Source of the DNA: Deltaproteobacteria bacterium
GTDB lineage: Bacteria > Myxococcota > UBA796 > SXON01
Reading direction: 5' to 3'
Assembly: GCA_947483545.1 (NCBI GenBank)
Contig: CANKNP010000032.1
Location: 1 to 22,294 of the forward strand
Length of the DNA stretch: 22,294 nucleotides
The number at the start of each line of letters is the position of its first letter. The first letter of the stretch is position 1. This document shows, one piece after another, positions 1,267 to 18,399 of this stretch. Both the position numbers and the translations under genes were made by a program. Under the pieces are notes generated by a model. That model was not told where the DNA came from. It searched no databases and saw only the letters and a list, made by a program, of their open reading frames with translations.

Positions 1267-2424
1267 CTACCCAAACCCCAACCCCCCGTGCGCCTTCAAA
1301 ACCCGCTCCAACGCCTCCTCCGCCGTGGCGCCCAACGCGGTGACGTGCCCCATCTTCCTGCGCTTCCGCACGTCCTTTTTCCCGTACAGGTGAACGTGGG
1401 CATCCGGCACGGCAAGCGCACCTGCCATCCCGGTGACCATCGTCGTCGCCCGGGATTTGTCCCCGAGCAGGTTCACCATCGCCGCGGGTCTTCGTAGCGT
1501 GGTCTCGCCCAGCGGCAGACCACAAATCGCGCGGATGTGTTGCTCAAACTGCGAGGTCACGCACCCCTCGATGGTCAGATGCCCCGAGTTGTGAACCCGC
1601 GGGGCCAGCTCGTTTACCCAAACCTCGGGGATTCCGGCGCCGCTTGGCACCACAAAACATTCAACGGTGAGCACCCCGACAATTTGGAGCGCCTCGGCCA
1701 CCGTCCGGGCGATGTCCTCGGCCTCGCGGGCCACCGCTTCGGGGATTCGGGCGGGGCAGCGGGTCAGGTGCAGGACACCGTCATGGTGCTCGTTCTCGAA
1801 GATCGGGAAGACCTTCACCTCGCCCGTGGTGCTCCGGGCCAGCACAACTGAAATCTCCCGCTCGAACGGGACCTCGCGCTCCCAACGGTAGGCGGTGCTG
1901 CCGTTCATGGTTGGGAGGCCCCCCAAATCCGCTTCCGTTCGCAACTTCCATTGGCCCCCGCCGTCGTAGCCGCCGCGGGCGGTCTTGAGCCGGGCTGGGA
2001 GTCCCACCGTCTCGATGGCCGTGACCAGATCTTGCGCGCCGCGGACACCACAGGCAGGAGCCGTCTGGATCCCGAGACGCTCCAACAATGCGCGTTCAGC
2101 CAGCCGATCCTGGGTCACCCGCAGCACGGCGGCGGACGGATGGCAAGGCCGATGCTCGGCCAACACCTCCACTGTCTCGGCCGGCACGTTCTCCCACTCC
2201 AGCGTCACGCGGTCGCACACCCGCATGAACTCGATGGTGCCGTCCAGATCGCCCGGCGCGTGGGTGAGCACCTGATCCGCGATTCCGCGCGCGGGGGCAT
2301 CGAACGGGCCGGCCCAGACCACCACGCCGTAGCCGAGCGACCTCGCGGACATGCCGAGCATCCGCCCGAGCTGACCGCCCCCGAGGATGCCTAGGGTCGC
2401 CCCCGGCTCACAGAGCTCGTTCAC
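1267..2424 (-). CDS. purK: N5-carboxyaminoimidazole ribonucleotide synthase
   Basis: PurK is a cytosolic ATP-grasp enzyme of de novo purine synthesis that carboxylates AIR to N5-CAIR using ATP and bicarbonate. The N-terminus has the nucleotide-binding loop [12 protein letters not shown]. The ATP-grasp body includes [10 protein letters not shown] and EREISVV, and the C-terminal part carries the PurK signature [12 protein letters not shown] followed by [14 protein letters not shown]. At 385 residues it has the usual length. I place the start at GTG 2424, whose bases overlap the purE stop (GTGA, four-base overlap). This gives a proper N-terminus just before the Gly loop and implies translational coupling. 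It is the last gene of a four-gene minus-strand run. Confidence 0.95.
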
Positions 2425-2903
2425 GGCTGTCCGAGCGGAGGGGTGCCCGCGATGGCGGCTTCGGCCTCTGCCAGGGTCCAAGCCTCAAGTCGGGCGGCCA
2501 GCGCGGGATCGTGGACGGCGAGTATCCGCACTGCGAGCAGCGCCGCGTTGCCTGAGTTCCCGATCCCTACGGTCGCCACCGGTACCCCCTTCGGCATCTG
2601 CACGATCGAGAGGAGGGAGTCCATCCCGTTCAGCGCTTTGGACGGCACGGGCACGCCGATCACGGGCAGTCGCGTCATCGCCGCGATCATGCCCGGTAGG
2701 TGCGCAGCCCCGCCCGCCCCGGCGATGATCACGTGCAGCCCTCGCTCAGCGGCGGACTTCGCGTAGCTGTACATCCGGTCGGGTGTCCGGTGTGCGGAGA
2801 CGACCCCCATCTCGAAGGTCACGCCCAGCGCCGTGAGCAGGTCTGCCGCAGCCTGCATCGTCTCGGTGTCGGTTCGGCTGCCCATGACGATGCCGACACG
2901 CAC
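2421..2903 (-). CDS. purE: N5-carboxyaminoimidazole ribonucleotide mutase
   Basis: PurE isomerises the N5-CAIR made by PurK into CAIR; together they replace a one-step AIR carboxylase. The 160-residue protein matches class I (bacterial) PurE in length. It shows MGSRTD near the N-terminus, the AHRTPDRM loop, [13 protein letters not shown], and the [22 protein letters not shown] active-site region split around Ser-Lys and Asp-Ser, followed by [14 protein letters not shown]. It overlaps purK by four bases and starts 11 bases after the outer-membrane protein gene ends. Co-transcription with two envelope genes is therefore likely. Confidence 0.96.
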
Positions 2904-2914
2904 GCCGGCGCCGG

Positions 2915-4261
2915 TCAGAACCGCACCGCGATGCCGCCCGTGATGCGCAACAGGCCATCCGTCTCGTCGAGCGCCGTGGGCTCAGCCTCCACGTCCGCGC
3001 TGTTCACCTCTTTCCCGCCGTCCGCCAGCGTGATGCTGTACGGCACCTCGATCAGGAACGACAGGTTGGGCACCACGTCCAGGCTCACGCCGCCGCCCAG
3101 GACCAGGCCGACACCGGCGCCTCCGGGGCTGTTCGGGTAGTCCACGCTCGATCCGTCGGGGACCTCAAAACCGTCCCAGAGGCGCAGGTGCAGCCCGGCG
3201 AGCACGTAGGGTTTGACGTACCCGGTGGCGATCGGCAGGACCCGGGCGCGCGGCTCGATGAAGCCCTGCACGCTGTTGACCGGCTCGTAATCCTGCACGT
3301 CGGAGGTCTCGGCGCAGTCGGTGCTCGGGCACTCCCAGCCGGCGTTCAGCGCCTTGGTGCCGAGGACGAGCCCGAGCTGGAGCGAGGTCTCCAAGAACCA
3401 CGCGGGCGTGTAGGTGATCGCTGCTGCGCCGGCGAACCCTGCGCCGGGGCCAGGGCCCTCGACCGTGGAGGCCGCGAAGGTCTCAAACCCGTCCGTGCCG
3501 TCTTGGATGGCCACGCGCACGCCGTAGCCACGGTTCACGTCGCCGAGGCCATAGCCGCCGAGCAGCTCAATGGACACCTTGCCAGTGCGCACGCGCTGCT
3601 GGTTGAGCCACTCCCGACGCGACAGTCCGCTCTCCCGGAACTTGGTGTATGCCCAGCCTGGGACCCCCATGTGGGCCTGCTCGTCGTCGGCCGTGTCCTC
3701 GGGGGCCGCGGGCGCTTTCGGCTTCTTTTCTTCCTTTTCCTCTCGCTCGTCCGGCTCCTCTTCGGGCTCTTTGCTCGTCGCCTTGGGCTCGCTCGTCGTC
3801 TTGGGCGCGATCCTCGCCGGCTCGCTGTCCCCGTTGAGGCCCGCTGCGATCCCCGCGATCTTCGCCGCCAGCTTCTCCTCCGCGCCGCCCGCTACCGTCT
3901 CGATGATCTCCTCAGCGGGCTCGTCCTCGCCCTCTTTGTAGATCCTCGCCGTGACCGAGAGCCCGTCGTCCGTCTGCCCCACGCCGAGCACGACCAGCAC
4001 GGTCCCGCCCTCTTCGTGGTCCCAGATCAGCCGCGGACAATCTGGGTTGTCGTAGCAGGCGTCCGCGTCGCTGGCTGCCCAGGGACGCATCCGATCCGCG
4101 TCCTGCACGTTCAGCCCGCGGTCCCGCAGTTGGGTGAGCACCATGTCGTAGAACAGATACGCGACGCTGAAATCGGAGAGTTGTGCGGGGGTCGCCTCGG
4201 GCACGAGCACATCCCCGGCGTGGGCCGAACGCAGGTGCAACGCGAGGAGGGTCAGCAGCAT
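2915..4261 (-). CDS. Predicted outer-membrane beta-barrel protein with charged linker
   Basis: The 448-residue protein starts with a signal peptide ([15 protein letters not shown], likely cut after AHA) and ends in Phe preceded by alternating hydrophobic residues (GGIAVRF), the usual C-terminal signature of barrels inserted by BAM. Residues about 16-140 look like a soluble periplasmic domain containing one Cys pair (ACYDNPDCP). Residues about 155-195 are an extreme Glu/Lys/Pro-rich linker. From about 225 onward there are repeated amphipathic strands rich in Gly and aromatics. It is not a family I can name. It lies three bases after the upstream lipoprotein gene and 11 bases before purE, so it is probably in one operon with both. 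Confidence 0.8.
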
Positions 4262-10481: not shown

Positions 10482-10522
10482 GTGGGCCGTGAACGCCGCT
10501 GGAAATCGGGAGTGGCGAGTCG

Positions 10523-10816
10523 GGTGGCGAACACTTCGGGAGTGGTGACCGCCACCGGGGGGCAAGACGACGCCGGTGGCGAACGCTTCGGGGGTGGTGA
10601 CCGCCACCGCGGCCAAAGACGACGCCGGTGGCGAACACTTCGGGGGTGGTGACCGCCACCAGGGGTCGAGAGGACGCCGGTGGCGAACACTTCGGGGGTG
10701 GTGACCGCCACCAGGCGGCAAGACGACGCCGGTGGCGAACACTTCGGGGGTGGTGACCGCCACCGCGGCCAAAGACGACGCCGGTGGCCAACACCTTGGG
10801 GGTAGTCACCGCCATC
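10523..10816 (+). repeat. Array A: six copies of a 52-bp tandem repeat
   Basis: Units begin at 10523, 10575, 10627, 10679, 10731 and 10783, an exact 52-bp period; the last is partial and diverged. Each has a 34-bp core starting GGTGGCGAACACTTCGGGGG and ending GACCGCCACC, plus an 18-bp spacer of similar sequence (AAGACGACGCC is typical). The core ends are complementary (GGTGGCG/CGCCACC), so each unit can form a hairpin. The spacers are related rather than unique, and no cas gene is near, so this is not CRISPR. It separates the divergent ligase operon and DGR target gene. Confidence 0.9.
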
Positions 10817-10864
10817 CGCCGGCGCCAACACCCGCGATAGATCCCCGAACTCCCTGTGCCACCC

Positions 10865-13800
10865 ATGCTCCTCGCCCTGCTCGCCTCGTGCATCTCCATC
10901 GACAAGGCCACGCTCGACGCCCGGCTCGATCCCGACGAAGACGGGGTGCCATACCCGGACGACTGCCAGCCCGAAGATGGGTCGATCTACCCAGGTGCTA
11001 TCGAGCTTTGCGATGGCATCGACCAGAACTGCGACCGGGCGGTGGACGAGGGGATCGTGATCCCGACCTGGTACACCGACGTGGTTGGCGACGGGTACGG
11101 CGACGGCGCCACGCAAGCTGCGACCGGCCAGAGGGCACGGCCGAGGTGGACGGGGACTGCGACGACGGGGATTCGGCCGTCAACCCCGGCGCCGAGGAGG
11201 TTTGCGATGGCATCGATCAGAACTGTACGGACGGGGCCGACGAAGGCGTGGAGTTGGAGCTGTACGTGGACGGGGATCGGGACGGATATGGGATCGGCGA
11301 CCCCGTTTTCGGGTGTACTGCGTCGGACGGACTGGCCATCTACAACGGCGATTGCGACGACCTGAACGACGCGGTCTACCCTGGGGCCGACGAGCTCTGC
11401 GATGAGGTTGACAACGACTGTGACGACCAAATCGACGAGGGTTTGGAGAGCACCTGGTATGTCGACACCGACGGTGATGGATTTGGTGACAGCCCTGTGG
11501 AATCTTGCGAGCAGTCCGAAGGCACCGCCGCGCTCGGCGGGGACTGCGACGACACCGATCCCGACTACAATCCCGACGCTTTGGAGCCCGACTGCACGGA
11601 CCCGAACGACTACAATTGCGACGGCAGCGTGAGGTATGCCGATGCCGACGGAGATGGTTTCGCCGCCTGCGAGGAGTGCGACGACACCAACGCCGCCGTC
11701 TACCCGGGCGCGACCGAAACGTGTGACGGGTTGGACAACGACTGTGACGGGACCGCAGACAACGGGGCGACAGACGCCCCAAGTTGGTACACGGATTCGG
11801 ATGGCGATGGATTTGGCGATATCGGCGGCGCGAGGACAGTCGCGTGTGAGCAACCCTCCGGGATGGTCGCCGATTCGACGGACTGCAACGACGCCTTGGC
11901 GGCTGTGAACCCCGCGGCGACCGAGATTTGTAACGATCTGGACGACGATTGTGACGGCACGGCGGATCTTGGGGCGGTGGACGAGATCATCTGGTACTAC
12001 GACGGCGACGGCGATGGCTACGGCGCGACCAGCTCGGTCAGCGAGTGTGACGCACCCTACGGCTACGTGGCTGCGACCGGGGACTGCGACGATACCAACG
12101 ACCAGGTCAACCCTGGCGCGACCGAGGTGTGCGGCGACGCCGACATGAACTGCGACGGCTCCGGGTTCGACGCTGATGGCGATGCCGACGGTTGGCAAGC
12201 CTGCGAGGACTGCAACGATGCGGACACCTTCGTGAATCCCTAAGGCGTGGAGCTTTGCGACGGCGCCGACAACGACTGTGACGGTTCTGTGGACAACGAG
12301 GCCGCGGACGCCACCTCTTGGTACGCCGACGCCGATGGTGACAGCTTCGGCGGGGCCTTCGACTCCGACGCCTGCGCGGCCCCGGCTGGGACGGTCTCGG
12401 ACGACTCCGATTGTGACGACGGGGATTCGGCGGTGAATTTCCTTGCGACCGAGACCTGCGACGGCGTTGATGAAGACTGCGACGGCGAGACCGACGATGG
12501 GTTGCCGCTCACGCTCTGGTACACGGACACGGACGGCGACAACTACGGAGATTCGACCGCGGAGATCGATGCCTGCGCTGCCCCGGCGGGAACCATCGGA
12601 TTGGCCGGGGATTGCAACGACGCCGACGCCGCCGTGAACCCCGGCGTGCCTGAGCTTTGCGACGGGATCGAGCAGGACTGCGACGCCGTTCCGGACGACG
12701 GCCTGACGCTCACGATGTGGTACACCGACGCCGACGGTGACGGCTACGGGGGTTCGGGGGTCGCTGCCTGCGCCGCCCGCCGGGACGATCGCGGATGGCA
12801 CCGACTGCGACGATGCCGACAGCAACGACCACCCCGGCGCCTCGGAGACCACCGGCAACGGTGACGACGACGACTGCGACGGGTTTGAGGTCTGCTACGA
12901 CGACGATGATGATGACGGCTATCTGGACGAGGATGGCGACGTTCGGGACTCGATCGACGCCGACTGCGCCGATGTGAACGAGGGCACGGACACGGATTTG
13001 ACGACGGACTGTGACGACAATGATGCCGGCGTCGTTGAATGTGAGACGTTTGTGGACTACGAGAATGCGTATGGGATGACGATGGTGGCGGTCACGGCGG
13101 GGACGTTCACCATGGGCGGGGGCGCCGGAGATCCCGATGGGAGCTACGTCGATCACAGCGTGACGTTGACCCATGATTTCTGCATTGGGGAGACGGAGAT
13201 CACGCGGGGGCAGTTGGAGATGGCGTCGGGGTTTTCGGGCTGGACGTACACGTCGATCAGCTACGGGTATGTCTGCTCGTTGGGGTCAGGTCAGGTGCGC
13301 TGGCGAACGCCAGCACGGATGGGGACTGCCCCGCTGATTCGATCTCCTGGTACGACGTGGCGAACTATGCGAACGCGATGTCCGCCGCCGAGGGCTTCGA
13401 CGCCTGCTACGCCGACAACGGCGATGGCACATTCAGCGCCCCGGCGGATCCGTACGCCTGTGAAGGCTACCGCCTCCCGACCGAAGCTGAATGGGAGTAC
13501 GCCGCCCGGGGAGGCGAGAACCTGGAGTTCTCCGGCTCGGCCACCGCCACCGACGTGGCCTGGTACTACGACAACGCCTACTCCGTGGGCACCTTTGCGC
13601 ACGAGGTCGCCACGAAGGCGCCGAACGCCTACGGGCTCTACGACATGTCGGGGAACGTGTGGGAGTGGACGCACGACCGGTACGACGGGAGCTACTATGC
13701 GGTGAGTCCGACCAGCGACCCAGCGGGCCCCGCGACAGGCTACTACCGGGTGATCCGGGGCAGCAGTTGGAGCAACGGCGCCACGGACGTGCGCGTCGCC

Positions 13801-13872
13801 TTTCGCCACAACGACGTCCCGAGCAACCGCTACAGCTACTTCGGCGCCCGCATTTCCAGGTCGAGCCCTTGA
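10865..13872 (+). pseudogene. DGR target: MopE-repeat lipoprotein with C-terminal FGE/C-type-lectin domain, broken
   Basis: Joined across its breaks, this is one protein of about 1000 residues. It starts at ATG 10865 (or GTG 10856) with the short lipobox-like signal MLLALLASC. Eleven MopE-type repeats follow (about 10917-12900), each with DCDD, a Pro-Gly turn and CDG.DNDCDG, likely binding divalent metal. From about 13070 to the end is an FGE-sulfatase domain (MVAVTAGTFTMGG, GYRLPTEAEWEYAARGG, NAYGLYDMSGNVWEW, RVIRGSSWSN). Breaks: a -1 shift at about 11117-11119; TAA at 12241-12243 inside repeat 8; a -2 (or +1) shift near 12775, in a C-run; a -1 shift near 13286-13297. The C-terminus is the variable repeat. 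The product is presumably surface-exposed ligand-binding protein. Confidence 0.8.
13736..13858 (+). repeat. DGR variable repeat (VR) at the 3' end of the target gene
   Basis: This 123-bp segment aligns without gaps to 14465-14587 (constant offset 729) and is identical at 106 positions. Of 17 differences, 13 fall where the other copy has A, and here the A is replaced by G, T or C. The other four are C or G in the template. It encodes the end of the FGE/C-type-lectin domain, where known DGR targets carry their ligand-binding variable residues. Twelve bases of coding sequence follow before the TGA at 13870-13872. Confidence 0.92.
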
Positions 13873-14214
13873 TTTTTGAGCCCTTTTGGCCTTGGTGCAT
13901 TTTGCATTTACTCAGCCTCGAAAGGGTGCTTGCCCCCCACCCACCCCGCCTGGGAGCGCCAGGCGGGGCCGGGGCCAAAGCCCGGCCCCAGCCTGAGCGC
14001 CGAGAGGTGGGGGGGGAGCAGGACGCACGTTCGACGATGCGCCACTCACCGCGTTCTTGACGGACAAAGACGCGCTCGACGCGACCGAGCATTGGTTCGT
14101 CCACGACGGGCTGCCCACGCTCACCATGGTTGGCCCTCCGGCGCGGGCGGAACGAGCGCGCGAAGCGAGACGGCCGGGCCCCTTACGTACCGTTCACGTT
14201 CACGAACAGCCGAC
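13873..14214. other. Region between VR and RT remnant: relatively AT-rich start, hairpins, unidentified fragment
   Basis: The first 45 bases after the target stop are visibly less G+C-rich than the surroundings. Two hairpins follow (annotated separately), then a run of eight Gs near 14009-14016. From about 14030 to 14131 one plus-strand frame reads like real protein (FDDAPLTAFLTDKDALD, HWFVHDGLPTLTMV), but it has no credible start and dissolves into a repeat-like Arg/Ala stretch. I do not recognise it. An accessory-gene (avd-type) or N-terminal RT remnant is possible but not shown. No intact gene is supported here. Confidence 0.5.
13944..13987. repeat. Strong GC-rich hairpins downstream of the VR
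   Basis: CCCCGCCTGG (13944-13953) and CCAGGCGGGG (13959-13968) form a perfect 10-bp stem with loop GAGCG. A second stem overlaps its edge: GGCCGGG (13967-13973) with CCCGGCC (13981-13987). In the Bordetella phage DGR, a hairpin just downstream of the VR promotes mutagenic homing; here the stem lies 71 bases after the target stop. There is no T-run, so ordinary intrinsic termination is only a second option. Confidence 0.7.
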
Positions 14215-14406
14215 GACCCGGGCCAGAGCGTGGACGCGGCGCGGGTTCGCCGCCTGCGTCGTCGCCTTCGGACCCTCGACCGGCGGCGAGGTCGGGGCCT
14301 TGACGACGACGACGTACAACGCCCGGCCGGCTCCATCGTGGCCTGGGCCTCGCACGCGAACACGCTGCGGTTGCGGCGGAAAATCGCGGAGACCGGCCAT
14401 AAGTGA
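14215..14406 (+). pseudogene. C-terminal remnant of a DGR-type reverse transcriptase
   Basis: The frame reads DPGQSVDAARVRRLRRRLR, then a Gly/Asp-rich joint, then SIVAWASHANTLRLRRKI and a TGA at 14404-14406. An Arg-rich helix (RVRRLRRRL) followed about 25 residues later by a W..HA.T.RLRR motif is how I remember the thumb and C-terminus of DGR and related bacterial reverse transcriptases. Nothing upstream in any frame supplies the palm, and no YxDD motif is visible. Only about 60 residues remain, so this is a truncated, inactive copy. Its position, 58 bases before the template repeat, is the independent support. Family assignment rests on memory of the motif. Confidence 0.6.
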
Positions 14407-14464
14407 CGCCCCGGGGTTAACGATGCGAGCCCGCCGGGACATGAGACCGCAGGCAAGAAGGAAG

Positions 14465-14587
14465 CAGGCTCCAACCGGGTGATCCGGGGCGGCAATTGGA
14501 ACGACGACGCCACGAACGTGCGCGTCGCCTATCGCAACAACAACGACGCGAGCAACCGCAACAACAACATCGGCGCCCGCATTTCCA
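14465..14587 (+). repeat. DGR template repeat (TR)
   Basis: This is the partner of the VR at 13736-13858, same orientation and no gaps. It is rich in AAC triplets (14536-14544 and 14560-14568), and a conceptual translation is full of Asn (NWNDD, RNNNDASNRNNN). AAC codons are typical of DGR templates because adenine mutagenesis of them yields many residues but never a stop. By my count it has 33 A among 123 bases; 13 of the 33 A differ in the VR, against 4 of 90 other bases. It has no start codon context of its own and is read as a non-coding template. Confidence 0.92.
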
Positions 14588-14758
14588 ACTCACGACCGCT
14601 CCGGCGTTCCGGCGCGGGGCCACACGGCCCTCGTTCACGGACGAGTGCCCCGCGCCAGGGTCCTGACCATTCTCCCTCCCAGCCTGCGCGGCACAACACC
14701 GCCGAAGACCAAAGCAGCCCGCTCCGCTCTCGGTTCACCGGCCCGGGGCGGGCATATT
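14588..14758. other. Structured region after the TR
   Basis: GGCGCGGGGC (14611-14620) pairs perfectly with GCCCCGCGCC (14647-14656), and the intervening 26 bases contain a smaller CTCGT/ACGAG stem. Folded RNA directly downstream of a TR corresponds in position to the spacer that primes cDNA synthesis in the Bordetella DGR; that equivalence is inference. A transcription terminator is the alternative. The rest to 14758 shows no gene; a plus-strand frame is open but starts inside the TR and has no protein-like features. Confidence 0.5.
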
Positions 14759-14917
14759 TGCGTCGTCTTTGCCCCCGGTGGTGTTCACCACCCCGGAAGT
14801 GTTCGCCCCTCGCGTCGTCTTTGCCCCCGGTGGCGTTCACCACCCCGGAAGTGTTCGCCCCTCGCGTCGTCTTTGGCCCCGGTGGCGTTCACCACCCCGG
14901 AAGTGTTCGCCCCTCCC
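14759..14917 (-). repeat. Array B: three inverted copies of the 52-bp repeat
   Basis: Units begin at 14777, 14829 and 14881, again exactly 52 bp apart. Read on the minus strand they contain GCGAACACTTCCGGGGTGGT and end in CGCCACC (CACCACC in the first copy on the plus strand), with spacer GGGGGCAAAGACGACGCG. This is the same family as array A in opposite orientation. The copies here are closer to each other than to array A. It ends 52 bases before the metalloprotease start. Confidence 0.88.
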
Positions 14918-14969
14918 CGAGCGAACCACCCAGGCATCGTTCGATCCTAACCCACGCTACGCTGGCCGG

Positions 14970-16442
14970 ATGATCTTGCTCCTCGCCCTCCTTCCCTCCG
15001 CGGACGCCACCCCTTGGTGCCGCACGCTCGACCACCTCGCGCTGCATCCGCCTCGCGCTGAGCGTAGCGAGCCCCCGCCTACGCGGCCTCAGACCGCGGT
15101 GCCGGAGACCTGCATCGATCCTCAGGAGCTTGCGGATGCGGAGAATCTGGACGGCACCTTCGACTCCGTCCGCATCACCACGCACTTCGCCATCGCCTGG
15201 GACGCAACCGATCCGGCGGTTACGGAGGCCGCCCTCGACACCTACGAGGATGCGCTGGAACGCTCCTGGGAGGTCGAAGTTGACGAGCTGGGGTGGCTCG
15301 CTCCGGACGAGACCGAGAACTGCTTGATCACGGTGCTGATCGCGGCGTTGCCTGCCTCCTGGGGCGACACCGGGGGGTACACCAACGTGCAGCAGTCCGG
15401 CACAGTGCCGTTCATGGTGCTGAACACCGACTGGATCCAACACGGCGACGTCTGGGCCGAGACGCTCGTAGCCCACGAATTCAATCACGCGACCCAGTTC
15501 GCCTACGACGTGTTCTGGGACGAAAGCGACTGGTGGTATTGGGAGGCGACCGCCGAGTGGATGACGGACTCAGTCTACGACGATGGGGACACGTACATCT
15601 GGAGCCTCTGGTCCTACCTCGCGGCCCCGGAGCTCGGCCTGGAATCCTACGAGGAGTACGTCCAGTACGGGCACTTCGCGTTCAACACCTACCTTGCGGA
15701 GAACGTGGACCCCGCCGCTCCACGGATGATCTGGGAGGCCGCCGGGCCGGCTGCGAGCGTGCCCTCGGCGCTGGACCAGGGCCTCAGCGGCGCGGGCGAG
15801 TCCTTCGAGGATGCCGTGCTGGGCTACACGTCACGGGTCGCCGCGATGGACGTTTCGGAGCGACAGGTGTGGCTCGACGCCCTCGGGTATTTTGAGGTAG
15901 ACCCCTGGCGGGCGCACGTCGAAGAGTACCCCGCGGACGGGGACTACGACGCCCACACGCCGGAGGCGTTGGGTCAGAATTTCATGCATCTGGGCGGCGC
16001 GCCGGGGGGAGACCTGCGCTTCAGCTTCGCCGGGGAGGCCGAGGTCGGCGGGGCGAGCCCGGAGTGGGGGATCACCGTCGCCTCCGTGGACGACGCGGGG
16101 GCGGTGACCCACGAGGTCATCCGCGCGGATGCGTCGGGCGGCGCAGAGGTGGTGATCTCGGGCCTGGGCGTCGATCTCTCGGACGTCTACATCGGCGTGG
16201 TGCCCATGGGGGACATCGGGACGAACGCGGCGGCGTGGTCCTGGAGCGCGGAGGTGGTGAAACCAACGGACACCGACGAGGTTGTGGACGAGGAGCAGGT
16301 GGCGTGCGGGTGCACGAGTGGGAACAGCCGGGGGGCGGGGCTGGGTGGGTTGATCCTCGCCTTGGGGTGGGCTCGGGGTCGCCGTGACCCCCGGCGCATT
16401 TCCCTTCTCCCCTTTGGGGTGATCCAAAACTCCAGGCGCTAG
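14970..16442 (+). CDS. Secreted HExxH zinc metalloprotease with probable MYXO-CTERM anchor
   Basis: The 490-residue protein begins with a short signal (MILLLALLPSADA). Residues 168-173 (AHEFNH) give the zinc motif HExxH with His169, Glu170 and His173; Glu192 or Glu196 (WEATAEW) is placed as third ligand, as in gluzincins. The 200-450 region is acidic and aromatic-rich. The C-terminus has Cys-Gly-Cys, a short hydrophobic stretch (GLGGLILALGWA) and a basic run (RGRRDPRR), the three parts of a MYXO-CTERM sorting signal, pointing to surface display. The tail continues 14 residues past the basic run, which is unusual. Residues about 26-45 (PPRAERSEPPPTRP) look like a repeat inserted in frame. Confidence 0.85.
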   Translation: MILLLALLPSADATPWCRTLDHLALHPPRAERSEPPPTRPQTAVPETCIDPQELADAENLDGTFDSVRITTHFAIAWDATDPAVTEAALDTYEDALERSWEVEVDELGWLAPDETENCLITVLIAALPASWGDTGGYTNVQQSGTVPFMVLNTDWIQHGDVWAETLVAHEFNHATQFAYDVFWDESDWWYWEATAEWMTDSVYDDGDTYIWSLWSYLAAPELGLESYEEYVQYGHFAFNTYLAENVDPAAPRMIWEAAGPAASVPSALDQGLSGAGESFEDAVLGYTSRVAAMDVSERQVWLDALGYFEVDPWRAHVEEYPADGDYDAHTPEALGQNFMHLGGAPGGDLRFSFAGEAEVGGASPEWGITVASVDDAGAVTHEVIRADASGGAEVVISGLGVDLSDVYIGVVPMGDIGTNAAAWSWSAEVVKPTDTDEVVDEEQVACGCTSGNSRGAGLGGLILALGWARGRRDPRRISLLPFGVIQNSRR

Positions 16443-16470: not shown

Positions 16471-16497
16471 GCCCGGGCGACCTTGAATTCTGCGGCT

Positions 16498-16548
16498 CCG
16501 GGAGCAGCCGCGGCGCCCGCTGCGAGCCCTCGCGGGCGGCGCTCCCGG
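16498..16548. repeat. Large inverted repeat upstream of the kinase gene
   Basis: CCGGGAGC (16498-16505) pairs with GCTCCCGG (16541-16548), with an inner GCCCGC/GCGGGC stem. It sits in the 240-bp gap between the metalloprotease and kinase genes. Function is unknown; a REP-like palindrome or a leader structure are both possible. The rest of the gap (16549-16683) shows nothing convincing. Confidence 0.5.
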
Positions 16549-16683
16549 GGTATGAACTACGGACTCCTAGACCCCGCCGATTCCCACGGGCGTCCCACGG
16601 CCCCGACCTGCTCGCGCCGATGGCCCCAAGCCCGCCCGCCCCCGTCCCTCCCTTCCGTGCTACATCCCCGCACGGAGCCGCCC

Positions 16684-18399
16684 GTGGTCACTGGAAACGT
16701 TCGCTACCAGATCACCCGGGTCGTCGGTGAAGGTGCGTTCGGGGCTGTCTACGAGGCGCAGCGGGTAGGCGAGGGGCTGTCGCGCCGCGTGGCGATGAAG
16801 CTGCTTCACGCCGCACATGCCGGAAAGGTGGGGATCGAGCAGCGACTTCGAGACGAAGCACGGATGCTCTCGCTGATCCACCACCGGGCGATCGTGCGCG
16901 TGGACGATTTGATCCAGGTCGAGGGCGCCTGGTGCGTGGTGATGGAATTCGTAGACGGGCTCGACGTCGCTGGGCTGTTGGAGCAGGGGCCGATGCCGCC
17001 TCGCGCCGCGTTGCAGGTCGCGGAGGAGATCGCCAACGCGCTGCACGCCGCCTAAGCACAGGTTGGACCCGATCGCCAGCCGTTGCACCTCGTTCACCGG
17101 GACATCAAGCCCGCGAACATTCGGATCACGCCGCAGGGCGAAGTGAAGCTGCTCGACTTCGGCATTGCACGCGCTGAGTTTCAGTCCCGCGAGGCCGCGA
17201 CCGTCGCGGCTGGGTTTGGCACGTTGATGTACATGGCTCCGGAGCGTTTTCGCGGGGAGGACACCGCCGGCGGGGATGTGTACGCGCTGGCGGTCACGCT
17301 CTTCCAGATGCTCACGGGCGAGGTTCCGGGCGAGAGCGCCGGCGACGTGGACCGGCGCCCGCCTGGAAAGCGGCTGCGACCGCAGTGGGCGTGGCTTCAG
17401 GAGCTGAGCCCGGACCTGGTGGCGCTGCTCGTGGAGATGCTACAGAACGAGCCCGAGGATCGCCCCAACGCGCGGGACTGTGCGCGGCGGATGAGCCGGA
17501 TCTCCCAAGCGCTCTCCGGAGAGGTCCTGGAGGATTGGGCGCCGGAGCACGTACCGGCCGCCACGCCGATGTCGCGGCCCGACAAGCCGTTGAGCCAAGG
17601 CACCCATTTTCGCGTGGGGATGACCATCGGCGGGGGTGGGGCGCGATCGGACGTCGGCGGCGCCGCCGCGACGATGTCGGCGTTCACGTCGGAGATCCCG
17701 ACCAGCTCGGGGGTGCGGGCGCCGAAGCCCAAGACACAGGCGCGCGGGGGGATTCTGCTGCTGCTGCTGTTTCTGGCAGGCTGCGCAGCGCTTTTGTTCG
17801 TGGTCACGGCAACGACCGGCGTCTGGTATTTTGCTTCCCCGGGGAGCGAGGTGGCATCGGTGACGGTGCCCGCGCCGACGGAAGCGGTGGCGCATGCCCC
17901 GGTGCCAGGGGCGCTGCCGGCGAGCACGTCTTCGGCCAGCCCGGCGGTGTTCTCCGCGGGCGCACCTGAGGCGCAGAAGGCGGGCGCACCTGTGGCGCAG
18001 AAGTCCTCCACCGCGGGTTTGCCCCCGCCGTCCACGAAGTCGTCCCCCGAGCGGATCGCGGCCACGAGCACGCCGACGGCCCCTCCCAGCGCGCCGGTTC
18101 CGACCCCGGAGGTCGCCCCCGTCCCTGAGGAGGCACCGGCCCCGGTTGCAGCCCCGGCGCCGCCGCCCAAACCAGCCGCCCCAACCACGGGCGTGCTCGC
18201 GCTCTCTGGCGATGCGCTCCGCATCTCCGTCGCGGGGATCTCCTCGCTATCGGCCGTGCCGCCAGGCACGTACGCAGCGAAGGTGACCTTCTCCTCGGGG
18301 GTCGTCGACGTGCCGGGTGTGACCATCGTGGCGGGGAAGACCACGCGGGTCACCTGCATGGAGAAGTTCGCGACGTGCCGGGTTTCGCCCGCGCAGTAG
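16684..18399 (+). pseudogene. Membrane-anchored Ser/Thr protein kinase, interrupted by in-frame TAA
   Basis: Read through the TAA at 17053-17055 (codon 124), the protein has 571 residues. It shows the Gly loop GEGAFGAVYEA (15-25), Lys39 (VAMK), HRDIKPAN with catalytic Asp140, DFG (158-160) and MAPERF. After residue 290 a Ser/Thr-rich segment leads to one membrane helix (GILLLLLFLAGCAALLFVV), then a long Ala/Pro linker and a C-terminal PEGA-like domain. This is the PknB-type layout common in Myxococcota. The stop falls just before the catalytic loop, where relatives tend to have an aromatic residue, so TAC/TAT to TAA is possible. I start at GTG 16684, just before the Gly loop. It could be a recent pseudogene, read-through or a base error. 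Confidence 0.82.

Follow-up and report, generated by a model that had tools for sequence, protein, structure and literature searches.

Diversity-generating retroelements (DGRs), whose type system is that of phage BPP-1, work with two repeats, a template repeat (TR) and a variable repeat (VR). Judging from related loci and from what is known of DGRs in general, the RNA of the TR would, in the intact state, be copied by a reverse transcriptase (RT) in concert with Avd, in a step that is error-prone at adenines, and the resulting cDNA would replace the VR at the end of a lectin-type target gene. Here we consider a locus of this family in a stretch of 22,294 nucleotides (hereafter, the window) from a deltaproteobacterium placed in the Myxococcota (assembly GCA_947483545.1, contig CANKNP010000032.1, positions 1 to 22,294 of the forward strand). 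It is likely a decayed DGR, inactive in cis and unable to mutate its target by itself, because what remains between an adenine-biased VR and its TR is limited to pieces of an HRDC accessory gene and an RT tail of 57 residues.

Degenerate DGR loci have already been described in Thiohalocapsa PB-PSB1, and those treated in the available part of that report (PMC10907252) resemble the locus in the window in that key machinery is absent or pseudogenised and that repeat arrays like those of miniature inverted-repeat transposable elements (MITEs) are present. However, the same part of the report has most of these loci undergoing diversification in nature, in two cases probably in trans, whereas the target gene in the window is broken. 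Furthermore, the PB-PSB1 arrays described there have replaced the RT or the TR, whereas those in the window flank the cassette. In Treponema denticola, remnants and 'suspicious' targets have been described, and the available sections of that paper (PMC4891356) place an HRDC accessory gene next to the RT and DGR remnants in some isolates. The accessory gene, however, lies there between the TR and the RT, and the eight isolates that these sections list as DGR-less are without RT and TR. A third likeness is that to all3226 of a cyanobacterium, a remnant TR-VR homology with no working RT adjoining it; the excerpt available (PMC7517822) gives no RT gene or pseudogene nearby, whereas the window retains an RT tail. 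A text search of the literature returned no paper naming both diversity-generating retroelement and Myxococcota, some papers matching myxobacteria instead.

The nearest relative with all parts of a DGR is a locus, L146, on contig C2 of genome G202, whose RT is 100% identical to protein P0025 from Deltaproteobacteria bacterium LBMAG42. Its order is target gene with VR, HRDC gene (PF00570, E = 3e-19), avd (PF22296 bAvd, E = 7e-12), RT gene (RVT_1, E = 3e-15), and TR. Compared with L146 and with a second, truncated locus of the same genome (L170, described below), the cassette in the window consists of the following features.

10895 to 13872, plus strand: target (variable protein) gene, broken; MopE-type repeats (PF11617, E = 6e-49 and 1e-19), then an FGE/C-type-lectin domain (PF03781, FGE-sulfatase, E = 8e-29) with the VR at its end
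13736 to 13858, plus strand: VR, 86% identical to the TR, with 13 of 17 mismatches at TR adenines
14025 to 14130, plus strand: first fragment of the HRDC accessory gene; 80% nucleotide identity to L146 (reverse complement) 3157-3262, and phmmer match of the L146 HRDC protein to open frame 13997-14479, E = 4e-16
14132 to 14197, plus strand: second fragment of the HRDC accessory gene, in a different frame; 76% nucleotide identity to L146 (reverse complement) 3392-3457, and phmmer match to open frame 14061-14300, E = 2e-7
14230 to 14406, plus strand: C-terminal tail of the DGR RT; 14230-14397 corresponds to residues 265-321 of 324 in L146 numbering, and the stop codon is at 14404-14406
14465 to 14587, plus strand: TR, 58 bp past the RT stop, placed by repeat comparison and by the L146 alignment; it is close behind the RT frame in five relatives as well
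14588 to 14753, plus strand: conserved 3' flank of the cassette, with homology to L146 as far as 14696 and to L170 as far as 14753

The two repeats align without gaps over 123 bp, and the mismatches at TR adenines lie at 14473, 14495, 14501, 14507, 14515, 14531, 14536, 14542, 14546, 14560, 14564, 14566, and 14569. With A at 33 of the 123 TR positions, such a concentration has a hypergeometric p of 5.3e-6, whereas in the opposite direction, 3 of the 17 mismatches fall at an A of the VR copy (p = 0.66). All 17 occupy codon position 1 or 2 of the VR frame. The VR ends 11 bases upstream of the target-gene stop codon (13870-13872), which is where the VR of a DGR is located, and the pair was recovered independently by a repeat search of the window (family D14). 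Judged by its sequence, the pair is a DGR-type VR/TR pair. The first-pass annotation, made from the DNA letters without database searches, had reported the same two segments with 17 differences, of which 13 fall at an A in the downstream copy, and its coordinates and positions were reproduced exactly; its assignment of the upstream copy to the C-terminus of an FGE/C-type-lectin domain agrees with the PF03781 match.

Between these two repeats, little of the machinery of a DGR has been retained. The RT tail is 61% identical to the L146 RT over 57 amino acids (tblastn, E = 2e-15), and a hidden Markov model (HMM) of 11 RTs, run against the 431 open frames on both strands of the window, matched the tail at E = 5e-8 (HMM positions 302-358 of 362), its next match having an E of 3.2. 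The RT catalytic core was not found in these frames. Likewise, none of the three forward frames in the stretch from VR to TR contains the catalytic [YF]xDD motif or the SQ motif, both of which are present in all 120 full-length RTs examined. These were the best 120 of 1,512 RTs in a protein collection (E up to 1e-40), and 117 of them matched the tail, the closest (P0028) being 75% identical over 57 amino acids. The tail is recognised clearly only when the RTs of relatives are used as queries: Pfam, NCBIfam, and PADLOC at E up to 5 gave no RT between VR and TR, and PHROG 1423 (reverse transcriptase) gave a weak match there (E = 0.003). The L146 Avd protein had no match at E up to 1 in the same 431 open frames, and with HRDC split into two fragments that lie in different frames, neither of the usual accessory proteins (Avd, HRDC) is available intact. 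In addition, Rfam gave no match in the window at gathering score, and no plasmid record matched 14057-14973. Consequently, although the locus shares with working DGRs the adenine bias between VR and TR and a lectin-type target that carries the VR at its 3' end, it lacks an intact RT, accessory protein, and target in the window; it shows instead the VR/TR homology with key machinery absent or pseudogenised that characterises degenerate DGRs. The claim of a DGR laid out as in BPP-1 thus stands as far as the adenine-directed pair and its FGE/C-type-lectin target are concerned, but not as a working layout, since there is only a tail of the RT, HRDC is in fragments, avd was not found, and the target is broken.

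The way in which this state was reached can be read in part from the alignment with L146. Both loci have an FGE/lectin target with a terminal VR, HRDC sequence, a TR close behind the end of the RT, and the 3' flank, but HRDC, avd, and RT are complete in L146 and, as far as they persist, only fragments in the window. VR start and TR start are 729 bp apart in the window versus 2,234 bp in L146. The first aligned block consists of the VR and its 3' flank (13738-14022). Between this flank and the first HRDC fragment, 116 bases of L146 are skipped, and a further 129 are skipped between the first and second HRDC fragments. The remainder of HRDC, avd, and the RT as far as about residue 264 (1,303 L146 bases) then stand against 35 bases of the window, after which a single alignment of 472 positions, from 14233 to 14696, covers the RT tail, the TR, and the 3' flank (72% nucleotide identity, E = 4e-63). 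This pattern suggests at least three deletions: the start and the middle of HRDC would have been lost, then the end of HRDC along with avd and about four-fifths of the RT. The target gene would have acquired frameshifts and a stop, and the VR and TR would have diverged at non-adenine sites.

Related loci provide a comparison for the repeats of the window. At least 558 FGE relatives of the target were confirmed, and the best 80 of these were kept. A motif scan of the 80 gave four positives, of which two (L018, L029) were judged to be chance matches and two (L056, L077) were taken as DGR RTs. A near-repeat scan of 13 relative loci found an adenine-biased pair in eight; none was found in L140, L151, L153, and L154, and the pair in L056 was without adenine bias. 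In three of the eight (L149, L155, L077), further repeats without bias lie beside the adenine-biased pair. Together, the eight pairs have 114 of 121 mismatches at an A of the template copy. L146 itself has 19 of 20 over 126 bp and 19 of 19 over 124 bp, compared with 13 of 17 in the window. The order VR, RT, TR with the TR close to the RT frame is seen in five of the eight (L146, L147, L152, L155, and L077), whereas in L148 and L149, the RT frame starts past the TR, and in L150, it overlaps the TR and continues beyond.

These relatives bear on whether the downstream copy is, as first annotated, non-coding. The window TR lies within a mechanically open frame (14407-14973, with a GTG start at 14479), and so the point is not proven; nevertheless, it is likely, because the corresponding repeat stands directly past the stop of the RT frame in five of the eight loci that have a pair. 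The same open frame would suit an explanation without any DGR, in which the tail of a lectin domain was duplicated and the copies diverged by ordinary substitution. Such an origin is exceedingly improbable, given that the adenine bias (p = 5e-6) runs in one direction only, that an RT tail and HRDC fragments follow in the expected order, and that eight related loci have similar TRs with the bias just described.

The TRs of the eight relatives also allow the four non-adenine mismatches (14471, 14491, 14503, and 14548) to be polarised. At 14471 and 14491, all eight match the TR of the window, which places the change in the VR. At 14548, all eight match the window VR, which places the change in the TR, and at 14503, seven of eight have the adenine seen in the VR (L149 has G), so that the window TR has most likely lost an adenine, as read from these sequences. 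The suggestion in the first-pass annotation that four non-A differences point to drift since the last homing event fits this division, two changes falling to each copy. Non-adenine changes in both copies would be expected once homing stops cleaning the VR and nothing maintains the TR.

However, the same positions can be read another way. Perhaps the target is live and only the cassette is dead, so that an intact DGR at another site of the genome rewrites the VR in trans, with the local TR a bystander and the non-adenine mismatches reflecting a different template. Trans action has been proposed for the degenerate DGR 4 and 5 of Thiohalocapsa PB-PSB1, in the part of that paper available (PMC10907252), and the agreement of the window VR with the relatives' TRs, rather than with its own, at 14503 and 14548 is what another template would produce. 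Remote VRs do exist: in genome G001, a TR on contig C185 (L154) and a VR on contig C221 (L172) have 14 differences, 13 of them at A, which by sequence comparison marks the L172 VR as a remote target of the L154 TR; the other three TR/VR combinations in that genome have 14 of 33, 15 of 36, and 18 of 35 mismatches at A. On the other hand, the VR changes at 14471 and 14491 would have been erased by recent rewriting unless the other TR shares them, and the target gene changes frame upstream of its VR. Rewriting of the window VR in trans is therefore unlikely.

A further view of this question comes from L170 (contig C39 of G202, reverse complement 2029-3100), which was found by a TR search and comprises a VR, an RT tail, and a TR in a genome that also holds the intact L146. 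Its RT tail covers HMM positions 298-359 of 362 (E = 1.5e-8), its RT core was not found, its VR and TR starts are 972 bp apart, and its target gene lies in two frames, the change being upstream of the VR (open frames judged by eye). Like the window, L170 has kept VR, RT tail, and TR without the RT core, and its target gene is out of frame; it differs in having other breakpoints, no HRDC piece that aligns to L146, an unaligned stretch of about 570 bp, and an internal deletion of the TR. From the sequences, the same outcome is evident in both loci, reached with different breakpoints. Over its first 81 bp, the L170 VR has 12 of 13 mismatches at A against the intact L146 TR and 11 of 14 against its own TR. 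Rewriting in trans by the intact DGR would produce this better fit, but drift of the L170 TR would explain it equally well. Furthermore, the L170 VR differs from the intact TR off adenine (2 differences over 110 bp, 4 over 124 bp), whereas the intact locus's own VR has zero such differences over 124 bp. These differences argue against recent rewriting, which is thus not evident even in a genome where an intact DGR is at hand.

The target gene of the window, when compared with the L146 target protein by tblastn, changes frame in three intervals (11110/11116, 12774/12776, and 13279/13315) and contains an in-frame stop at 12241-12243. Its closest other protein is 51-60% identical, among 17 compared in a search for a close allele. 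A strong G+C-rich hairpin lies in the 3' flank of the gene at 13944-13968, 86 bp past the VR; in a longer stretch, an overlapping stem is preferred, and the hairpin may be either a terminator or a target-site structure. Breaks of this kind raise the question of whether the organism carries an intact DGR, with misassembly or sequencing error behind the deletions and frameshifts. The window is known from a single contig, and one further lesion, an in-frame stop at 17053-17055 that breaks a protein kinase gene (16483-18399), lies outside the cassette. However, a collapse between repeats would have fused VR and TR, and both are kept, whereas the junctions fall beyond these repeats, in and around HRDC and RT. 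The HRDC fragments are ordered and yet in different frames, and L170 is a differently cut relic in another assembly. The target gene holds four of the five coding lesions noted in 2,978 of 19,770 coding bases (15%, p = 0.002), although the gene bounds were set by hand and only lesions that were noticed are counted, the other genes having had no systematic scan. Four of five lesions within one gene speaks against evenly distributed sequencing error. An artefact of assembly or sequencing is accordingly a quite improbable source of the whole pattern.

The limits of this lesion test are one of several points that weigh against a decayed and inactive DGR. The deletions and frameshifts rest on one assembled contig, and its protein P0001 has a single contig of 24,264 bases as its known source. 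Another RT of the organism, encoded outside the window, could still be acting on the VR. No relative close enough to date the decay turned up; among the best 120 of the 1,512 RTs, the closest tail is the one at 75% identity. Finally, the excess of off-adenine mismatches over the relatives' pairs (4 of 17 versus 7 of 121, Fisher p = 0.03) is weak, mismatches are not independent events, and the same test for L170 (3 of 14) gives p = 0.07.

If the VR were nevertheless rewritten in trans, a DGR target could outlive its own cassette. On the preferred reading, the locus is a clear case of a mutator's end, in which the RT core has been lost while VR, TR, and RT tail can still be read. A DGR finder that takes the RT gene as its starting point would probably miss it. 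RT-based surveys probably overlook such relics in general, which would make the loss of DGRs seem rarer than it is.

Related genomes were searched with both RT and TR queries. The L077 RT found matches in 7 of 71 genomes of the class of G222 (E up to 1e-25). A TR search found matches in 8 of 17 chosen genomes (E up to 0.001) and, in the class of 71 genomes, in 7 (E up to 1e-5), with at most 12 candidates scored in each genome and some of the matches being VRs. In five genomes with several FGE matches and no RT at E up to 1e-25 (G194, G305, G156, G118, and G151), no close copy of the window TR was found among some of their loci. In G194, the FGE domain of the target has eleven matches (E up to 1e-20), yet there is no DGR RT at E up to 1e-25. 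In L077, a single TR (at 1776) is accompanied by three adenine-biased VRs (at 153, 3127, and 6275), whose mismatches fall at A in 14 of 15, 16 of 16, and 12 of 12 cases.

The cassette in the window is bordered on both sides by arrays of a 52-bp repeat, which were located by a repeat search.

10522 to 10833, minus strand: left array of the 52-bp repeat, five units and one diverged unit
14760 to 14915, plus strand: right array of the 52-bp repeat, in the opposite orientation, three units

The left array ends about 60 bp before the start of target-gene homology (10895), and the right array starts 7 bp beyond the end of L170 homology (14753). The arms are 84% complementary over 152 nucleotides, and single units fold weakly (z of -1.9 and -2.4). 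A search of 14 related genomes, which had no positive control, did not find the unit. The arrays may be either elements that move the cassette or ordinary intergenic repeats of the genome. One could imagine a non-autonomous cassette, consisting of a target with its own TR, no RT, and inverted MITE-like 52-bp arrays, which would spread as a unit and depend on an intact DGR at another site for its diversification in trans, much as a MITE is served by its parent transposon; at present this idea must be considered highly improbable. Beyond the right array, a DUF6055 protein is encoded at 14970-16442. The source of the window is most likely an uncultured member of the phylum to which G003 belongs: among 24 relatives listed for this protein, itself among them, six have an organism name (three Myxococcota, two Pseudomonadota, and one Deltaproteobacteria), and of the 377 genomes in that phylum, 53 have a match to it.

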